From Rhodospirillales bacterium (GTDB lineage: Bacteria > Pseudomonadota > Alphaproteobacteria > Rhodospirillales > WMHbin7), in the NCBI GenBank assembly GCA_016214125.1, contig JACRPC010000006.1, forward strand, positions 62,001 to 126,000: a stretch of DNA of 64,000 nt, written 5' to 3'. The notes under the pieces were generated by a model. That model searched no databases and was not told where the DNA came from. It saw only the letters and a program-made list of their open reading frames with translations. The stretch's first letter is position 1. The number at the start of each line of letters is the position of its first letter. Positions 11,967-19,394 of this stretch are shown piece by piece. The translations under genes and the position numbers were made by a program.

Positions 11967-12440
11967 ATGACGGACCGCAACCTTGCGGCGTTCAAGAAAG
12001 CCCTGGCGCCCGGCCAGCGGCTGCTGGGAATCGATCACGGATCGAAGACCCTGGGGCTGGCGCTGTCCGACGTTTCGCGGATGATCGCCACGCCCATGGA
12101 AACCCTGATCCGGGCCAAGTTCGCCCAAGACGCCGAACGCCTGGCGGCCTTGATCGAGGCGCAGGGCGTGGGCGGGCTGGTGATCGGCCTGCCGATCGAG
12201 ATGGACGGCGCCGAAGGGCCGCGCTGCCAATCGGCCCGCCAGTTCGCCCGCAATCTGGCCAAGGTGATCGAACGCCCGGTGCTGTTCTGGGACGAGCGGC
12301 TGTCGACCGCCGCCGTCCTGCGGATGATGGTCGACGAGGCCGACCTCTCGCGCGCCAAGCGCGCCCGCGCCAAGGACAAGATGGCCGCCGCCTGGATCTT
12401 GCAAGGCGCGCTCGACGCCCTGGCGCGCACCGCCGATTAG
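11967..12440 (+). CDS. ruvX: Holliday junction resolvase-like protein RuvX (YqgF)
   Basis: 157 residues from ATG 11967; an upstream in-frame ATG at 11934 lies too near gatC and lacks a ribosome-binding site. It has the RNase H-like fold motifs [28 protein letters not shown] and WDERLST, with acidic residues in the expected places. The family is implicated in pre-16S rRNA 5-prime processing. The stop TAG overlaps the stop of the convergent cytochrome gene. Confidence 0.93.
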
Positions 12441-13570
12441 GGCCGTTCGAGCACGGTCTCGAACAGGCGGTAGCGCCGCGCCTGGGCCTCGGCGTCGGCC
12501 TTGGCGATCAGCCGCGCCGCCGGGCCGCCCTTGGGCAGCGCCGCCAACAGCCCGTCATAGACCTCGTGGTCGTAAAAATCGTCGGGATGGATGTCCAGCC
12601 AGAAGCGGACGCTGCGCGCCCGCCCCCAGGCGATCTCCAAGATCGCGGTCTGGCCGGGCAGCAGGCGGGTGTCGGACAGCTCGGTCCATTCCCCATCCTT
12701 CTCGATCACCCGGCGCTGGATGACATGCTGGGCGGTGCGGCCGTCCGAGGTCTCGGCGCGCAGCACCGCCTTCGGCGTCACATAGGTGGGAAAGGCGTGG
12801 CCGACCCGCACGCTGGTCAGCTCGAAGCGCGCCCGGTCGGCTTGCGCCAGGGCGCGGGCCTCCAGGCCCGATCGGGTCATCTCGGGATCGTGGATGCCGC
12901 GCCAAAGATGGCGGCGATCCGGCATGTGGCAGCCCTGGCAGGCAAGGCCCTGTTTGGCAAAGGGGCTGGCCTGCCACTCGGCCAGCGTGTTCTCGAGCGG
13001 CTTGCCGTTGATCGCCTGGTCCTGGGAAAACTGGTGGCAGACCGCGCAGAATTCCGAGGCCGAGAAATCCGGGCTTCGGAAGACGCCGCCATGCGGGCGG
13101 TCGTTGGCGCTGGGGCCGGTCTGGCCGCTGGCCCGCTCGGGCGGGCCGAAGCGGCGGTGGCCGCGCACATGGCAGGCGGCGCAGGCGATGCCCGCCGCCG
13201 CCAGCCCCTGCGCCTTGGGATCGTGGGCGCGCTTCTGCCGGCGCGCCGCCTCGAAGGCCTGGGCCTGCTCGGCCAAGGGGGCGTGGCAATTGAGGCATTC
13301 GCGGGTTTCCGGGGCGGTCATGTCGAGCAATTGGCCGACCAGACCGGGCGAGAGCGCCTGGGCGTGCAGCGAGGTTTTCCAAGCCTCGTATTGCTCGGCG
13401 TGGCACTGGCCGCAATCCTCGGGCTTCAAGGATTGCTCGAGCGGCTCCCAAAGGGCTGGCGCCTTGCCTTGCGCCGCCAGGGGCTGGCGCCAATGATCCT
13501 TGGGCAGGGATTGCGCCAAGGCGCCGCCGGCCAACAGAAGAGCAAGCAGAAGGCCTACCAGCGCCCTCAT
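12437..13570 (-). CDS. Periplasmic pentaheme cytochrome c
   Basis: 377 residues with a signal peptide ([19 protein letters not shown]). Five CxxCH haem sites are visible: CGQCH, CLNCH, CAACH, CAVCH and CQGCH, all in the first 245 residues. The C-terminal domain has a VGHAFPT segment and a beta-rich stretch seen in the multiheme c554/hydroxylamine-oxidoreductase-like family. It overlaps the NrsF gene (ATGA) and so lies in the ECF sigma operon. The physiological partner is unknown; an electron donor or acceptor in the periplasm is the likely role. Confidence 0.88.
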
Positions 13571-14226
13571 GCCGGGCGGACGGTCCGCCAGGTGAGGAGC
13601 AGGCGTCCCAGCCCCCAGCCCAGCCCGGCCAGCGCCGCCACCGAACCGAAATGCCAGACCAGAACCATCAGGCCGGAATTCTGCTCGTGCGTCATGCTGT
13701 GGCCGACATTGCCCAGCGCCGCCGCCGCCAAGGCGGCCAGCGCCAGGGTCAGGCCGGGCCTGAGCGGCGCGCAGCGTTTCACCATCCAATAGATCGCCAG
13801 ACAGGGTACCGCGCCCACGGCAACGATGCTGGGCAGGCACTCAAGCTCGGGCTCGAAGGCGAGCCCGGCCGATTCGCGGGCCAGCCAGGATCGCAGGCAG
13901 CCGATTCCCAAGGTGCCGAGCCAGATCAGGAAGGGCGCCAGCGGCAGCCACGCCACCTGGCGCGATCGGCCGGGCACCACCAGGGAAAAGGCGGCGTAGG
14001 CGGCCAACAGCGCGGTGAGGAAGGCGGCGCCCTGTTCGATCAGCCAGGGAAGCTCGGTGACTTTCAAGGCGAGATCGGGGCGCGGCCGGCCGATCAGCAC
14101 CGCCACCGCCATGGCGGGAATGCCGATCGCCAGCCAGAGGCCAAGCCGTTGCGCCGGCGGCGGCAAGGGCGCGACCGGCCGGGCGTCGGCCGCCAGGGCC
14201 TCGATCAACCGTTCCGTCGTCATCAT
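13567..14226 (-). CDS. NrsF-type (DUF1109) membrane anti-sigma factor
   Basis: 219 residues. A short cytoplasmic N terminus (MMTTERLIEALAADA) precedes six predicted membrane segments, for example LGLWLAIGIPAMAVAVLIG and the later ALAALAAAALGNVGHSM. Two conserved-looking cysteines occur in GIGCLRS and in the ELECLPS / VPCLA region. This matches the NrsF family that inhibits SigF-type ECF factors in Caulobacter, where cysteines are tied to stress sensing. Overlaps the sigma gene upstream and the cytochrome downstream, both by ATGA. Confidence 0.85.
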   Translation of the reverse strand: MMTTERLIEALAADARPVAPLPPPAQRLGLWLAIGIPAMAVAVLIGRPRPDLALKVTELPWLIEQGAAFLTALLAAYAAFSLVVPGRSRQVAWLPLAPFLIWLGTLGIGCLRSWLARESAGLAFEPELECLPSIVAVGAVPCLAIYWMVKRCAPLRPGLTLALAALAAAALGNVGHSMTHEQNSGLMVLVWHFGSVAALAGLGWGLGRLLLTWRTVRPA

Positions 14227-14804
14227 TCCGTCGTCTCCTTCGACAGCACGCCCCGCAAGGCCCTTAGGCCGCGATGCACCGCCACCTTGAGGGCGGCGAC
14301 GCTTTGTCCGCTGGCGTGCGAGGCCTCCTTGAGCGAAAGGCCCTCAAGCTTGGTCATGGCGATCGCCTGGCGCTGGCCCTGGGGCAACTCGGCCATGGCC
14401 TGGCGGAGCGCCTGCGGGTCGCCGTAACCCTCCTCTTCCTCCTTCGCCGCAACCCCCAAAAAGGTTTCATCGAAAAAATCGAGCGCGGTTTCGCGCCCGC
14501 GCAGCCGCCGGTTCTTGCGCAGGCCATCAAGGACCCGATGCTTGGCGATCGCCATCAGCCAGGGGCCGAAGGGGCGGGCGGGATCGTAGGTGTGGCGGAC
14601 CGCATGCAGCGACAAAAGGATATCTTGCACCAGATCCTCGGTTTCGATGCCGAAGGAGGCCGGCACCACCCGGCGCACCCGGGCGCGCAGCAAGGGCAGG
14701 ATGGCGGCGAGCAGGCGGGCATAGGCCCGGCCATCGCCCCCTTGAGCGGCCCGCATCAGCTCGGCCCATTCCCGCTCGCGTTCGTCGGCTTGCGCTTGGC
14801 TCAT
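14223..14804 (-). CDS. ECF-family RNA polymerase sigma factor (SigF-like)
   Basis: 193 residues from ATG 14804. Region 2 contains AEDLVQDILL-type sequence (here TEDLVQDILLSLH) and PFGPWLMAIAKHRVLDGLRKN; region 4 contains LPQGQRQAIAMTKLEGLSLKEAS and a VAALKVAVHRGLRALR helix. Together with the DUF1109 partner it belongs to the SigF/NrsF-type systems that respond to heavy metals or oxidants. An acidic insert (AAKEEEEGYGD) separates the two regions. First gene of the minus-strand operon; divergent from the thioredoxin operon. Confidence 0.93.
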   Translation of the reverse strand: MSQAQADEREREWAELMRAAQGGDGRAYARLLAAILPLLRARVRRVVPASFGIETEDLVQDILLSLHAVRHTYDPARPFGPWLMAIAKHRVLDGLRKNRRLRGRETALDFFDETFLGVAAKEEEEGYGDPQALRQAMAELPQGQRQAIAMTKLEGLSLKEASHASGQSVAALKVAVHRGLRALRGVLSKETTE

Positions 14805-14836
14805 CGCCCGTCCCTGACCGCGTCCTTGCCGGCGAC

Positions 14837-14863
14837 TGTAACCTTTTTCCAAGACCGGGCGAA
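14837..14863 (+). promoter_or_regulatory. Candidate ECF sigma promoter for the thioredoxin operon
   Basis: TGTAACC (14837-14843), exactly 16 bases, then CGAA (14860-14863), 57 bases before ATG 14921. A GTAACC-type -35 with a CGAA-type -10 is what I remember for SigF-like ECF factors with NrsF partners, so this fits direct control by the adjacent sigma gene. No mirrored copy was seen facing the sigma operon. Confidence 0.55.
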
Positions 14864-14920
14864 GGACGAAGGGAGAGGCGGATTTGACCGCCTCGCTCGT
14901 CGCCAACCGGGAGAGGAACC

Positions 14921-15307
14921 ATGACCCCCATGAAATCGATTGCTGGCGTGTTGGGCGCCGTGCTCTTGCTTCTGGCCTTCGCCGTGCAGGCCGCCACCCC
15001 CTTCGACGCCAAGATGTTCCAAAGCGCCCAGGAGTCGGGGAAGACCATTCTGGTCGATGTCACCGCCTCGTGGTGCCCGGTCTGCGCCAAGCAGCAGCCG
15101 ATCATCCAAAGCCTGGAGAAAGACCCCAAATTCGCCGGGGTTGCGGTGATGAAAGTCGATTTCGACACCCAGAAGGACGCGCTCAAATCCTTCAAGGTGA
15201 CGTCGCAAAGCACGCTCATCGTCTTCAAGGGCAAGACCGAAATCGCCCGTTCGACCGGCGAGACCGATGCCGCCCGCATTCGCCTGCAGCTCGAAAAGGG
15301 GCTTTAG
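14921..15307 (+). CDS. Periplasmic thioredoxin-family protein
   Basis: 128 residues. A signal peptide or N-terminal anchor (GVLGAVLLLLAFAVQA) precedes a thioredoxin fold with active site SWCPVC near residue 52, then a PIIQSLEKD helix and the cis-proline-type region QSTLIVFKGK. It resembles the C-terminal domain of DsbD, encoded separately. The next gene, two bases downstream, is the CcdA/DsbD-type membrane protein that would supply its electrons. The probable role is reduction of periplasmic disulfides or stressed cysteine proteins. Confidence 0.9.
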   Translation: MTPMKSIAGVLGAVLLLLAFAVQAATPFDAKMFQSAQESGKTILVDVTASWCPVCAKQQPIIQSLEKDPKFAGVAVMKVDFDTQKDALKSFKVTSQSTLIVFKGKTEIARSTGETDAARIRLQLEKGL

Positions 15308-15309
15308 CC

Positions 15310-16038
15310 ATGTCGGCAGCGGTCGGCAGTCTGGCGTTCGGCTATCTGGCCGGTGGGCTGTCGACCCTGTCGCCCTGCGTGCTGCCCCTGCTGCCGCTGC
15401 TGCTGGTGGGAGCGTTCGACGAGCACCGACTGGGGCCGCTGGCCCTGGCGGGCGGTCTGGCGGTCTCCTTCACCCTGCTCGGCCTTGGTCTGGCGACGGT
15501 CGGGCTGGCGGTCGGGCTCGATTCCGGGCCGGTGCGTCTGGCGGCCGCGCTTCTGATGATCGCCTTCGGCGCCATCCTGATCGCGCCCCGTCTGCAACTG
15601 GCTTTCGCCGGCTGGGTGGCGCCGCTTTCCGGCGGCGCCAACGGCATGCTTGAACGCCTGACGCCCAAGGGCCTTTCCGGCCAATTCCTTCTGGGTTTGG
15701 TGCTGGGCGCCGTCTGGGCGCCTTGCACCGGGCCGACCCTGGGCGCCGCCGTCGGGCTGGCGGCGCAGGGCCAGACCCTGATCTACGCCGCCTCGGTGAT
15801 GGCGGTGTTCAGCCTGGGCGCCGCCACCCCGGTGCTGGCGCTGGCCTATGGCTCGCGTCAGGCGATGCGCCAACGCCGCGACCGGTTGGCCCAATTCGCC
15901 AAGAAGGCCAAGCCGACGATGGGCGCGATGCTGCTGCTGATCGGCGTGCTGGTCGCCGCCGGCTGGGACAAGGTCCTGGAAACCCAATTGGTGGCGATCA
16001 TGCCCGCTTGGCTGGTCGACCTCACCACCCGTTTCTAA
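15310..16038 (+). CDS. CcdA/DsbD-type transmembrane electron transporter
   Basis: 242 residues with six or more membrane segments. The two redox cysteines lie in the family motifs STLSPCVLPLLPLLL (near residue 22) and GAVWAPCTGPTLG (near residue 140). These proteins move electrons from cytoplasmic thioredoxin across the membrane to a periplasmic thioredoxin-like partner, here the product of the preceding gene. ATG 15310 lies two bases after that stop, so co-translation is likely. The two genes together reproduce a split DsbD. Confidence 0.9.
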   Translation: MSAAVGSLAFGYLAGGLSTLSPCVLPLLPLLLVGAFDEHRLGPLALAGGLAVSFTLLGLGLATVGLAVGLDSGPVRLAAALLMIAFGAILIAPRLQLAFAGWVAPLSGGANGMLERLTPKGLSGQFLLGLVLGAVWAPCTGPTLGAAVGLAAQGQTLIYAASVMAVFSLGAATPVLALAYGSRQAMRQRRDRLAQFAKKAKPTMGAMLLLIGVLVAAGWDKVLETQLVAIMPAWLVDLTTRF

Positions 16039-16084
16039 TCGTGCGTTGCTTCGTCTTCCTTTCATCCACACACGGAGAATCATC

Positions 16085-16291
16085 ATGAATCGTCTTGCCA
16101 TCGCTCTCGGCACCCTGTTGGTCGGCGGCCTGTTGGTCGGCGCTCCCGGCGAGGCCTATGCCCAAGCCGCCAATCCCTGCAAGCCGAAAGCGGCCAATCC
16201 GTGCGCGCCCAAGGCCTCGAATCCGTGCGCGCCCAAGGCCGCCAATCCCTGCGCGCCCAAGGCTTCCAACCCCTGCGCCCCGAAGAAATAG
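16085..16291 (+). CDS. Secreted NPC-x-PK octapeptide-repeat peptide
   Basis: 68 residues from ATG 16085, after a GGAG ribosome-binding site. A signal peptide ends at AYAQA; the rest is five units of the octapeptide (A/S)-A/S-N-P-C-(A/K)-P-K. Each unit has one cysteine and one or two lysines, and nothing else. The mature peptide of about 40 residues, with five evenly spaced cysteines and a strong positive charge, suggests metal binding or thiol buffering in the periplasm. It is the third gene of the thioredoxin operon. Similar short NPC-repeat peptides exist in other bacteria, but I know of no assigned function. Confidence 0.8.
   Translation: MNRLAIALGTLLVGGLLVGAPGEAYAQAANPCKPKAANPCAPKASNPCAPKAANPCAPKASNPCAPKK
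16172..16288 (+). repeat. 24-base coding repeat encoding NPC-x-PK units
   Basis: Five in-frame units starting at 16172, 16196, 16220, 16244 and 16268. The units differ at synonymous positions (ccctgc/ccgtgc, gcgccc/gccccg), so the protein repeat is conserved more tightly than the DNA. Confidence 0.85.
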
Positions 16292-16304
16292 CGCGCCCGT
16301 AATC

Positions 16305-16334
16305 CCGCCGGCGGCGCCCAGGCGTCGCCGGCGG
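16305..16334 (+). other. GC inverted repeat between operon genes
   Basis: CCGCCGGCG and CGCCGGCGG separated by 12 bases lie between the repeat peptide and the next gene. There is no T-run. It could attenuate transcription or protect the upstream mRNA, favouring high output of the small peptide. Confidence 0.4.
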
Positions 16335-16369
16335 CGCTTGCCGATCCCCTCATCGTTCGGAGTCCGGCC

Positions 16370-16828
16370 ATGCGATTTCCCCGACCCTCGCGCCAGCATC
16401 TGCTCTTGGGCACCGCTTGCCTGGCGACCTTGGTGCTGGCGGCCTCGTTCGGCACCGCGGCGCCCGCCCCACCCCGGCGGGTCACCCTGACCGGCGAACT
16501 GGTCGACAGTTGGTGTCAGGCCACCGGCATCATGTACGCGCTGGGCACCGCGCATCACCAATGCGCCGTCTGGTGCGCGGCGGGCGGGGTGCCGACCAGC
16601 CTGCGCGCCGCCGACGGCACGCTCTACACCATTCTGCGGGTCGAGAAGGATCAGGCCAACGTCGCCAATCCGCGTCTGCTGTCCATCCAAACCCATCAGG
16701 TGACGGTCGAGGGCGACGTGATCGAGCGCGACGGGCTGCGCTATCTTCTGATCGACCAGGTGCGAACCGATCAGGGCATCGTCAACCACACCGATGCCGA
16801 ACACGGCATCCAACCGTTCGGGGAGTAA
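16370..16828 (+). CDS. Secreted cysteine/histidine protein of unknown function
   Basis: 152 residues. An N-terminal signal (ACLATLVLAASFGTAAPA) is followed by one compact domain. The striking part is residues 43 to 75: GELVDSWCQATG, then TAHHQCAVWCAAGGVP. Three cysteines and a His pair in 25 residues look like a metal or haem site. The rest is beta-rich (TLYTILRVEKD, HQVTVEGDVIERDGLRYLLI). Family not recognised. It ends four bases before the next gene start, so the two are co-expressed. The next product has the same GxxVDxxC opening. Confidence 0.75.
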   Translation: MRFPRPSRQHLLLGTACLATLVLAASFGTAAPAPPRRVTLTGELVDSWCQATGIMYALGTAHHQCAVWCAAGGVPTSLRAADGTLYTILRVEKDQANVANPRLLSIQTHQVTVEGDVIERDGLRYLLIDQVRTDQGIVNHTDAEHGIQPFGE

Positions 16829-16832
16829 GACC

Positions 16833-17339
16833 ATGCGCGCGTTTCTGGCGATCCTCGCCTTGATGCTGGCCGCCCCGACGGCCTGGGCGGCCGAATCCTG
16901 GGGCCTGCCCAACGAACAGCCGGCGATGATCGAAGGCAAGGTGGTCGATGCGCTTTGCGTGCTGGTGGGCGATTGCCCGAAGGGCTGCGGCGCGGGCAAG
17001 CGGCAATTGGCCATCCTCACGCCCGCGGGCAAGCTTGTTCTCGCCATGAAGAACGCCGATCCCTTTGCCGGCGCGGTGCGCGACCTGCTGCCTTATTGCG
17101 GTAAAAGCGTTACCGCCGACGGTCTGTTCGCCACCAACGAGGGCGTTACCGTGTTCGCGCTTCAGCGCGTCAAGCCCAAGGGCGGGACTTGGATCGCCGC
17201 CAACGGTTTTGTCCGCGACTGGGCCAAGGCCCGTGGCCTGGCCGCCGACGATCCCAAGATCGAGGAATGGTACCGGCACGATCCGACGGTGGCCACGATC
17301 ATCGCCAAGGACGGCAAATTGGGTTTGGGGCCGCCCTAA
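16833..17339 (+). CDS. Secreted cysteine protein, probable relative of the preceding gene
   Basis: 168 residues. Signal peptide MRAFLAILALMLAAPTAWA. After it, MIEGKVVDALCVLVGDCPKGCGAGK parallels the ELVDSWC opening of the upstream protein; further cysteines include one in LLPYCGK. The cysteines are placed for a metal centre or disulfides. The central region LAILTPAGKLVLAMKNADPF resembles a small beta-barrel. Unknown family. ATG 16833 was chosen over an upstream in-frame ATG inside the preceding gene because it gives a clean signal peptide. Last gene of the operon. Confidence 0.75.
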   Translation: MRAFLAILALMLAAPTAWAAESWGLPNEQPAMIEGKVVDALCVLVGDCPKGCGAGKRQLAILTPAGKLVLAMKNADPFAGAVRDLLPYCGKSVTADGLFATNEGVTVFALQRVKPKGGTWIAANGFVRDWAKARGLAADDPKIEEWYRHDPTVATIIAKDGKLGLGPP

Positions 17340-17432: not shown

Positions 17433-19394
17433 CTAGCGATTTTCCCAGCGGGCCGGCACCAGGAGCCGGGCGCTCTTGCGGCTCCACAGCAGCGCTTCGC
17501 GGGCGAAGCGCACCCGATCGCCGGCGTAATCGAGGGGGTCGAGGATCAGGCGCTGCGGCCGGGCCGCCAGCGCCGGGCGGTCGGCGTCGAAAAAGCGCTC
17601 GAACCATTCGGGCAGGTTGAGCGTGAAATCCCATTCCCGCTTGGCAGGCGCCGTGGGGGCGGGCAGGCGCAGGCGCTGATAGAGCAGCACCTGGGACAGC
17701 TCGGCCGGATCGCAGGTCAGGCCCCGCGCCGCCAGAAGATCGGCGATCTCCCCTTCCAGTTCGGCGAAAACGGACTCGAGATCGATCGAAAGTTCGAGGA
17801 AGGCCGCCTCTTCCTCTTCCCAGTAGAGATCGCCGAAGCCTGCCATCGCCGTGCCGCGCCCGCCGCCGGCCAACAGCGAATCGACCTTGGCCTCGAGCCC
17901 GGCCACCAGTTTGGCCAGGCGGGGCGCTTGGTGGGGTTTGGCGCGGCCCTCGGCCAACCAAGCCGCCAGCGCCCGATAGGGCACGCCCAGCCTGGCGAAC
18001 AGCCATGCCTGAAGGAAGAAGCCGAATTTCAGGCTGTGCAGCAGCATGACCAGCCAGGAAAAGACCAGCATGCGCCGCCAATCGGAAAGCGGCATGCTCG
18101 CGGTCGCCACCAGGATGTCCTCGTACTCGTCGACCCATTCCGGATCGCGCACGCTGCCATGCACCGGGTTGGCGACGATGCGCCGCGTTTGGATGCCGAA
18201 GCGCGCCTGTTCGGCCGGATCGGCCAAATCGGTGTTGGGCAGCACCTGGCAGATGTAAAGATAGAGCTGGTTCTTCAGGCCCGAGGCCAGCACGGTGTCG
18301 ATGCCGTGTTGCCAGCTTTCGGCGGTTTCGCCGGGCAGGCCCAGGATCAATTCCGTGTAGACCGGCACCCCGGCCTCGTTGAAGGCGTGCTGCAGGCGCT
18401 CGGCCACCGCCAGCTTGATGTTGTCGCGCTTGATGTTGGTCTGCACCTGCGGATCGAGGCTTTGATAGCTGATGGTGATGCCCTTCTCGATGCCGTGGGC
18501 GTGCAGAAGGGTGCCGATCTCCAGGATCTTGTCGTTGGTGTTCTTGCCGTAGCAGCTACGGAAGGCCTCGGGGAAGCCGGTGCGCGTCTTGACCGCGACG
18601 ATCTTCTTGGCGATGTCGAGATCGCGCTTGTTCATGCCGAAATTGGAATCGGCGTTGAAGAGATAGCGGATGCGGTGCGCCCCCATCCACTCGATCTCGG
18701 CGAAGGTGCGCTCGAGGCTGGTGTAGCGGTATTTGCGGCTCAAGCCGCCTTTGCCCCAATAGCAGAAGGTGCAGTGGAAGGGGCAGCCGCGGTTGGTTTC
18801 GATGATCGCCTGGAAGGTCATCTCCGGATGGGCCGCCATCAGCGATTCGTAATGACCGCCGAGATAGGGCGAGGGATAGACGTCGAGATCGCGGTTGAAG
18901 GGGCGCTCCTCCTGGCTCACCCGCACCTCGCCCATGGGCGTACGCCAGGCGATTCCCGCTAGGCCCTCGACATCGTGGCCAGCGTCCAGCCGTTCCAGGA
19001 TGTCGGCGAAGGCCTCTTCGCCCTCGCCGCGCACCGCGATATCGAGGAAGGGATGGGCGGCGAAGAAGGCGCGGGGATCGTGCGGCACCTGGGCGCCGCC
19101 CATGACGATGGTGCAGGCGGGAAAGCGCGCCTTGACGGTGCGGGCCACCGCCAGATTGAGCTGTTCGTTCCAAAGCGAGAGCGAAAAGGCGGCGAGGAAA
19201 GGCCGGTCGTGGCGCTCGACGATGCGGCCCGGCCGATCGATGTGGAAGTGATAGGGCATGAAGGCAAAGCCATCTTGAAGCGCCGGGCGGGTTTCGGCAT
19301 AGGCCTGCAGTAGGCCGGAGACCAGCGGCAGATAGGTCGTCTGCCCCATCAGCAAATTGAACTCGTTGAAATAGACCCTGCGCTCGCCGGTCAT
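17433..19394 (-). CDS. B12-binding-domain radical SAM protein (653 aa)
   Basis: The N-terminal 150 residues form a Rossmann-like cobalamin-binding type domain (TIVMGGAQVPHDPRAFFAAHPFLDIAVRGEGEEA). The radical SAM core follows, with the CxxxCxxC iron-sulfur motif CPFHCTFC near residue 210 and LILGLPGET near residue 355. About 190 further residues contain a hydrophobic LLHSLKFGFFLQAWLFARLG stretch and an acidic EEEEAAFLELSIDLES segment. Such enzymes catalyse C-methylation or rearrangement chemistry; the substrate is unknown. Last gene of the run that includes glycosyltransferases, six bases after the methyltransferase-like gene. Confidence 0.85.
   Translation of the reverse strand: MTGERRVYFNEFNLLMGQTTYLPLVSGLLQAYAETRPALQDGFAFMPYHFHIDRPGRIVERHDRPFLAAFSLSLWNEQLNLAVARTVKARFPACTIVMGGAQVPHDPRAFFAAHPFLDIAVRGEGEEAFADILERLDAGHDVEGLAGIAWRTPMGEVRVSQEERPFNRDLDVYPSPYLGGHYESLMAAHPEMTFQAIIETNRGCPFHCTFCYWGKGGLSRKYRYTSLERTFAEIEWMGAHRIRYLFNADSNFGMNKRDLDIAKKIVAVKTRTGFPEAFRSCYGKNTNDKILEIGTLLHAHGIEKGITISYQSLDPQVQTNIKRDNIKLAVAERLQHAFNEAGVPVYTELILGLPGETAESWQHGIDTVLASGLKNQLYLYICQVLPNTDLADPAEQARFGIQTRRIVANPVHGSVRDPEWVDEYEDILVATASMPLSDWRRMLVFSWLVMLLHSLKFGFFLQAWLFARLGVPYRALAAWLAEGRAKPHQAPRLAKLVAGLEAKVDSLLAGGGRGTAMAGFGDLYWEEEEAAFLELSIDLESVFAELEGEIADLLAARGLTCDPAELSQVLLYQRLRLPAPTAPAKREWDFTLNLPEWFERFFDADRPALAARPQRLILDPLDYAGDRVRFAREALLWSRKSARLLVPARWENR

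Follow-up and report, generated by a model that had tools for sequence, protein, structure and literature searches.

A 64,000-nucleotide stretch of DNA from a Rhodospirillales bacterium (contig JACRPC010000006.1, positions 62,001 to 126,000; hereafter the window, in which all positions are counted) holds two divergent operons, one encoding an extracytoplasmic function (ECF) sigma factor, an NrsF anti-sigma factor and a pentahaem cytochrome c, and the other a thioredoxin (Trx), a CcdA-like transporter, a secreted peptide with Asn-Pro-Cys (NPC) repeats and two secreted Cys proteins, here called S1 and S2. Our leading reading, to which we give somewhat less than an even chance, is that these genes may form an envelope stress regulon of the ECF16 (SigF/NrsF) type that would stock the periplasm with reduced thiols that can be recycled. 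The gene set resembles envelope systems already known to protect against oxidants or toxic metals, of which it seems to be a variant; what it adds is the family of NPC-repeat peptides, S1 and S2 as a pair, a linked pentahaem cytochrome and an NrsF with altered Cys. Gene content, conserved linkage, the promoter and the Cys change in NrsF were supported by comparative sequence data. The features of the locus are the following.

14223-14804, minus strand: ECF sigma factor, SigF/ECF16-like, with PF04542 and PF08281 over cut-off; first gene of a three-gene operon
13567-14226, minus strand: NrsF/DUF1109 anti-sigma factor (PF06532, 103.9 bits; cut-off 26.8)
12437-13570, minus strand: secreted pentahaem c-type cytochrome with exactly five CxxCH motifs; third gene of the overlapping operon
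14837-14863, plus strand: ECF16-type promoter TGTAACC-N16-CGAA, after the published consensus (PMC3420878, PMC8315932)
14921-15307, plus strand: periplasmic thioredoxin with WCPVC, DsbD-gamma-like (PF00085), aligning with residues 466-570 of the DsbD model PRK00293
15310-16038, plus strand: CcdA-like DsbD-beta membrane electron transporter (DsbD_TM; PF02683 over cut-off), aligning with residues 176-398 of the DsbD model
16085-16291, plus strand: secreted NPC-x-PK repeat peptide of 68 residues, with similar peptides in related loci
16370-16828, plus strand: S1, secreted Cys protein resembling an oligonucleotide/oligosaccharide-binding (OB) fold (alignment A3; mean predicted local distance difference test score, pLDDT, of the model 74.5)
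16833-17339, plus strand: S2, secreted paralogue of S1 (alignment A4; mean pLDDT of the model 79)

In the minus-strand operon, the sigma factor and NrsF genes overlap by 4 bp (14223-14226), as do the NrsF and cytochrome genes (13567-13570). Both operons, including these overlaps, were found gene for gene as the initial annotation had drawn them, and its view of the locus as a single regulated envelope module under a sigma/NrsF pair of the SigF type was supported. The pair showed sigma regions 2 and 4 followed by DUF1109/NrsF, together with the target promoter type, as in ECF16. The term 'split DsbD' used there also held, since one and the same DsbD model covers the thioredoxin with its gamma part and the CcdA-like protein with its beta part.

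The consensus of ECF16 promoters has been given as tGTAACc-N16-CGAA (PMC3420878) or (T/C)GTAAC-N17-CGAA (PMC8315932), and exactly one such box was present in the window (TGTAACCTTTTTCCAAGACCGGGCGAA at 14837), 84 bp upstream of trx and facing the trx operon. In 1.15 Mb of related loci, the strict form of the box gave 28 raw matches versus 0 on the reversed sequence, and 15 of 17 unique boxes preceded trx, a ccdA remnant, NPC, sigma or cytochrome genes; the remaining two stood before a transporter gene adjoining sigma (L041) and before a chemoreceptor-like gene (L051). One relative (G083) carried sig-nrsF and trx-ccdA on one contig, with a GGTAACC variant as the trx box; NPC-S1-S2 lay on a second contig and had a box to itself, indicating that co-regulation outlasts separation. 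In another relative (G198), a box within the end of nrsF faced cyt-NPC-trx. A genome-wide ECF16 regulon could not be drawn for the window's own genome, in which a loose pattern was uninformative (33 matches versus 45 in the reversed control) and the two best other sites were rejected, one overlapping the start codon of a haemerythrin gene and one lying inside valS.

The recurrence of the grouping was followed in an order-wide search of 317 genomes of one alphaproteobacterial order, along with a survey of NrsF neighbours in 150 of its genomes. The initial annotation had left room for an accidental grouping; the cytochrome, the thioredoxin and the NPC peptide do recur in related loci, and the grouping is not accidental. 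In six relatives (L034-L038, L043), as in the window, the trx-ccdA pair adjoined sigma-NrsF; in L046 it lay within ~4 kb, and an NPC-S1-S2-cyt block lay at most 8.5 kb from NrsF in L039, L042 and L045. S2 was found at 14 loci of named genomes, including Magnetospirillum sulfuroxidans, Paramagnetospirillum kuznetsovii and P. caucaseum, and in P. kuznetsovii the genes follow one line, trx-ccdA-NPC-S1-S2-X-cyt. Order-wide, S1 occurred in 18 genomes, the full cytochrome in 16 and both in 5. In 12 of the 16 genomes with the cytochrome (the window's own, G109, G125, G058, G220, G211, G223, G164, G198, G026, G077 and G052), a gene for an NPC peptide stood at most ~3 kb from it, although these genomes are related and do not amount to 12 independent events; no NPC peptide was found within that distance in G194, G018, G121 and G008. 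The gene order varied: sig-nrsF-cyt-NPC-trx in G198, cyt-NPC-trx-ccdA in G223, trx-ccdA-NPC divergent from cyt in G220, and NPC divergent from cyt in G164, G026, G077 and G052. The survival of linkage through such rearrangement argues for function. A gene for a radical SAM protein (17433-19394, minus strand; sub-threshold B12-binding match) lies 3' of the module in convergent orientation and is outside the module in relatives.

We infer the stimulus, the release of the sigma factor here, the electron flow, the scavenging chemistry and the role of the cytochrome as follows. A thiol-reactive stress would modify Cys residues of the membrane anti-sigma factor NrsF, probably Cys130 with Cys110, and the freed sigma factor would transcribe trx-ccdA-npc-S1-S2 from the TGTAACC-N16-CGAA promoter. 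CcdA and Trx, equivalent to DsbD minus its alpha domain, would bring cytoplasmic electrons across to the periplasm, where the NPC peptide would thereby keep its Cys residues reduced and S1 and S2 their CxxxC motifs. The NPC peptide, as a flexible Cys array, would be consumed by oxidants and then regenerated, so that it would do with Cys what the sacrificial peptides MrpX/BcrX of other ECF16 regulons do with Met, and the pentahaem cytochrome may pass electrons to or from the thiol pool. Oxidant scavenging is favoured because the ECF16 systems of Bradyrhizobium, Brucella and Azospira do so with Met chemistry, and because the NPC peptides of Paramagnetospirillum hold a Met-rich stretch.

A precedent for part of this scheme had been overlooked in the initial annotation, according to which no system of this composition had been described. 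In Bradyrhizobium japonicum, EcfF/OsrA controls bll1027-bll1026, encoding a DsbD-beta protein and a periplasmic Trx, whose expression is ~90-fold up without the anti-sigma factor and is induced by H2O2, and which the authors proposed to supply electrons to a periplasmic Met sulfoxide reductase (PMC3420878, the only paper found in a literature search for ECF16 and thioredoxin). The two systems share the ECF16 sigma factor, the DUF1109 anti-sigma factor, the promoter type and Trx plus DsbD-beta in the regulon, but the EcfF/OsrA targets include Met sulfoxide reductases, and the NPC peptide, S1/S2 and the cytochrome are not reported there. In Brucella, the ECF16 system BcrS/AbcS-BcrXQP controls a Met-rich peptide together with an Msr system and is induced by HOCl (PMC8315932), and the Azospira SigF/NrsF pair, according to the same paper, controls a sacrificial Met-rich peptide. 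Both resemble the window locus in having an ECF16 pair, a small secreted sulfur-rich repeat peptide and a recycling reductase; they differ in that their peptide is Met-rich (MXKDX) and their reductase MsrPQ, whereas the window has a Cys peptide devoid of Met and Trx/CcdA as the putative reductase. MsrPQ was not among the genes of the window locus.

The anti-sigma factor, the only NrsF in the window's genome, departs from the canonical redox switch. The canonical Cys pair is 131 and 181 in Caulobacter NrsF (PMC3511200) and 129 and 179 in Bradyrhizobium OsrA, where Cys179 is required for the H2O2 response (PMC3420878). In an alignment of 27 NrsF proteins, the window protein kept Cys130 and had Cys110, but carried His180 in place of Cys181; since the C131 + C181 pair is thus incomplete, it was filed as NrsF-like only and not as a canonical switch. 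It also scored 22.8 bits versus the 300-bit threshold of the Caulobacter-type NrsF equivalog NF042994. His likewise replaces the second Cys in most of the window's relatives within the order, and an extra Cys stands ~20 residues before the first, C110 being present in 23 of 24 His-type versus 0 of 3 Cys-type NrsF (Fisher p=0.0014, not corrected for relatedness). Because the usual Cys181 is His, we propose Cys130 and Cys110 as the sensor, so that the sensor thiol may have moved to the Cys110 site.

The NPC peptide consists of a signal peptide followed by five NPC repeats with a period of 8 residues. Its predicted mature part (42 residues) has 5 Cys, 10 Pro, 7 Lys and zero Met, and this lack of Met sets it apart from the MrpX/BcrX-MsrPQ group, Cys/Met hybrids being found in P. 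caucaseum and P. kuznetsovii, whose NPC peptides include the Met-rich KAMDDKAMMDKK resembling MXKDX peptides. Codon differences between the repeats are mainly synonymous (29 versus 16 non-synonymous), indicating that the repeat is maintained at the protein level. A DNA pattern for the array matched 87 of the 317 genomes, with one match in total for the reversed-pattern control. Bufferin/DUF2282 models gave no match to the peptide and EGKCG is absent from its sequence; the sole model hit was cornifin, a low-complexity match slightly under cut-off. With rather more doubt than confidence, we suspect that NPC-repeat proteins are an undescribed periplasmic Cys-array class, widespread in the order, whose partners are S1/S2 and haem proteins, among them the pentahaem cytochrome and the cytochrome c and P460-like domains to which NPC arrays are fused. 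In the window's lineage this class would have been put under an ECF16 regulator whose anti-sigma factor shifted the second sensor Cys to the Cys110 site, away from that of Cys181.

NPC arrays were also seen in other settings. All 29 listed genomes of one family and genus (f29, g30) carried them, often more than one per genome. In L148:5357-6568, and similarly in L140:5320-6534, a long NPC array was joined to a part with CAECH that matched cytochrome P460 below threshold, and arrays were fused to a cytochrome c-like part in L113:6225-6899 and L152:5054-5914. Near long NPC proteins, a recurrent set comprised an EgtB/FGE-sulfatase-like protein, Sulf_transp (YeeE-like), DUF302 and a cupredoxin-like protein; the long-NPC/EgtB-like neighbourhood was present at L121-L123, L130, L137, L140, L141, L145 and L148, some with SCO1 and S1/S2. 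In addition, a DUF6969 (PF22308) protein of ~240 residues adjoined NPC peptides in 21 examined loci (L110, L113, L126, L130, L132-L134 and others); no match to it was obtained in the window's genome, in a search run without a positive control, and a literature search found nothing on this family.

The CcdA-like protein is the third DsbD_TM protein of its genome. Since this genome also encodes CcmE (Ccm system), another CcdA and a DsbD of full length, the window Trx/CcdA is an extra set, and the pair looks dedicated. Compared with the DsbD, ScsB and CcdA-Trx pathways, its membrane (beta) and Trx (gamma) parts align to one DsbD model, but they are separate proteins from two genes, have no alpha domain and would be dedicated to a stress regulon, which sets the pair apart from DsbD itself. 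The window CcdA had orthologues in G125, G220, G223, G083, G211, G204 and G208, and none was found in G109, G058, G198, G164, G026, G077, G052, G008 and G121.

S1 and S2 are encoded side by side and are paralogous (profile match 94%, E=1e-7). The invariant residues are C49, HH62-63 and CxxxC (C65, C69) in S1, two His standing just N-terminal of the CxxxC, and C42, CxxxC (C48, C52) and C89 in S2. Profile searches of the PDB with S1 and S2 gave nothing significant, and the predicted folds are OB-like with weak structural matches (Z 5 to 7), among which many unrelated OB folds tie and SilF also occurs; no single fold family stands out, Z <7 being below the family-separating level. From their motifs and neighbours, S1/S2 point to periplasmic thiol, metal or electron chemistry. 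Small operons of S1-S2, in most cases with SCO1 next in line, occur in other alphaproteobacterial orders (L169-L178), with no sigma, NPC or Trx gene nearby. A remote S1-like domain also occurs in a membrane-anchored protein of ~255 residues (L179-L184), which adjoins an MsrQ-like ferric-reductase/Rieske fusion in both loci scanned (L179, L183).

These features bear on the alternative that the locus is a buffer for soft metals of the Cu(I) type, in which the NPC peptide and the CxxxC proteins S1/S2 would bind copper-like ions, Trx/CcdA would only keep the ligands reduced, and the whole would be the unmodified-thiol counterpart of bufferins. Caulobacter SigF/NrsF controls DUF692/DUF2063/DUF2282 operons that are induced by Cr and Cd (PMC3511200), and bufferins, in whose Buf1 clusters NrsF genes are found, chelate copper (PMC12452194); the window locus resembles these systems in that an ECF16 pair controls secreted Cys peptides. 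The invariant CxxxC of S1/S2, the SCO1 gene that follows the pair across alphaproteobacteria, the MNIO and DUF2063 genes adjoining the module in G198 and the presence of SilF among the fold matches are consistent with the same idea. Bufferins, however, need MNIO, DUF2063 and Cys-derived heterocycles, whereas the window locus has neither MNIO nor DUF2063, its genome gave no match to MNIO (PF05114) where control genomes did, and a DUF2282/EGKCG-type precursor is absent, placing the locus outside the bufferin systems. Moreover, the Cys spacing of NPC peptides in related loci varies (3, 6, 7 and 8 residues), unlike that of a fixed metal cluster, neither an efflux pump nor a copper regulator is encoded in the window locus, and the fold matches of S1/S2 remain under the level that separates families. 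We regard a metal buffer of this design as rather unlikely in itself, and copper or soft-metal trapping as a close second to oxidant trapping, nearly as likely given the Caulobacter SigF/bufferin link, SCO1, the CxxxC motifs and the MNIO gene beside the G198 module.

All 17 homologues of the cytochrome, from 16 genomes, keep the five CxxCH motifs and exactly five further invariant His, the number expected for five bis-His haems, so that electron transfer is more likely, judging from these residues, than catalysis at an open haem. The best family match was the ExtKL/MccSep-type group, and cytochrome c554 was also matched; the window protein is likewise a secreted multihaem cytochrome c, and its N-terminal haem region aligns with theirs, but it falls far outside ExtKL (60 bits versus the 250-bit cut-off of NF040886) and is linked to ECF16/NrsF and NPC. 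A literature search found no paper naming MccSep. The cytochrome tree left the window row without clear placement and did not tell vertical from lateral spread of the NPC-cytochrome link; plasmid records gave no match to the cytochrome or S2, and thus no sign of spread by plasmids. CcdA with thioredoxin is the classical reductant of apocytochrome c, which raises the alternative of a cytochrome assembly or electron-transfer unit, with Trx/CcdA reducing the CxxCH Cys for haem attachment, NPC, S1 and S2 serving as chaperones or partners, and stress regulation being secondary. The persistence of the cytochrome-NPC pair, the highest in the module, and the fusion of NPC arrays to cytochrome c and P460-like domains would fit; yet such functions are already covered in the genome by CcmE, by another CcdA and by a DsbD of full length, and trx-ccdA occurs with an ECF16 box in relatives that lack this cytochrome (G003, G050, G075, G139, G093), which makes this unit quite improbable. 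Least likely is detoxification or use of a sulfur, selenium or nitrogen oxyanion or radical, with the cytochrome as reductase and the NPC thiols carrying the product, as the ExtKL/MccSep-type and c554 matches and the Sulf_transp, DUF302, EgtB-like FGE-sulfatase and P460-like domains at NPC loci elsewhere might suggest, but the bis-His pattern suggests that there is no open catalytic site and the window locus holds none of the sulfur genes.

Several observations weigh against a recyclable thiol pool directed at oxidants. In the window, no ECF16 box could be recognised for sigma-nrsF-cyt, so that the cytochrome is only a putative member of the sigma regulon there. The Caulobacter SigF targets respond to Cr and Cd, not to oxidants (PMC3511200), and the Cys179 that OsrA uses and requires for its H2O2 response is His in the window NrsF. 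NPC and the cytochrome remain in G164, G026, G077 and G052, where no orthologue of the window CcdA was found, indicating that recycling by CcdA is not obligatory; in P. caucaseum (G109; L039:4042-4221, L053), ccdA is internally deleted with 59 residues left, an intact ECF16 box standing before it and an intact NPC-S1-S2-cyt downstream. Finally, S1-S2 often stands beside SCO1, which is either a copper chaperone or a thiol reductase, in places where sigma, NPC and Trx are all missing.

Three kinds of ECF16 regulon have been described, with a Met-rich scavenger, with a bufferin, or with Trx/DsbD-beta and Met sulfoxide reductases. In the window locus, the Trx/DsbD-beta target stands together with a multihaem cytochrome and with a Cys-repeat peptide and a protein pair that are both unstudied, and the Cys-to-His change in its NrsF is a natural variant for locating the sensing residue. 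This combination makes it testable whether the shared ECF16 stimulus is an oxidant or a metal, and whether a free-thiol peptide may serve as a renewable periplasmic buffer.

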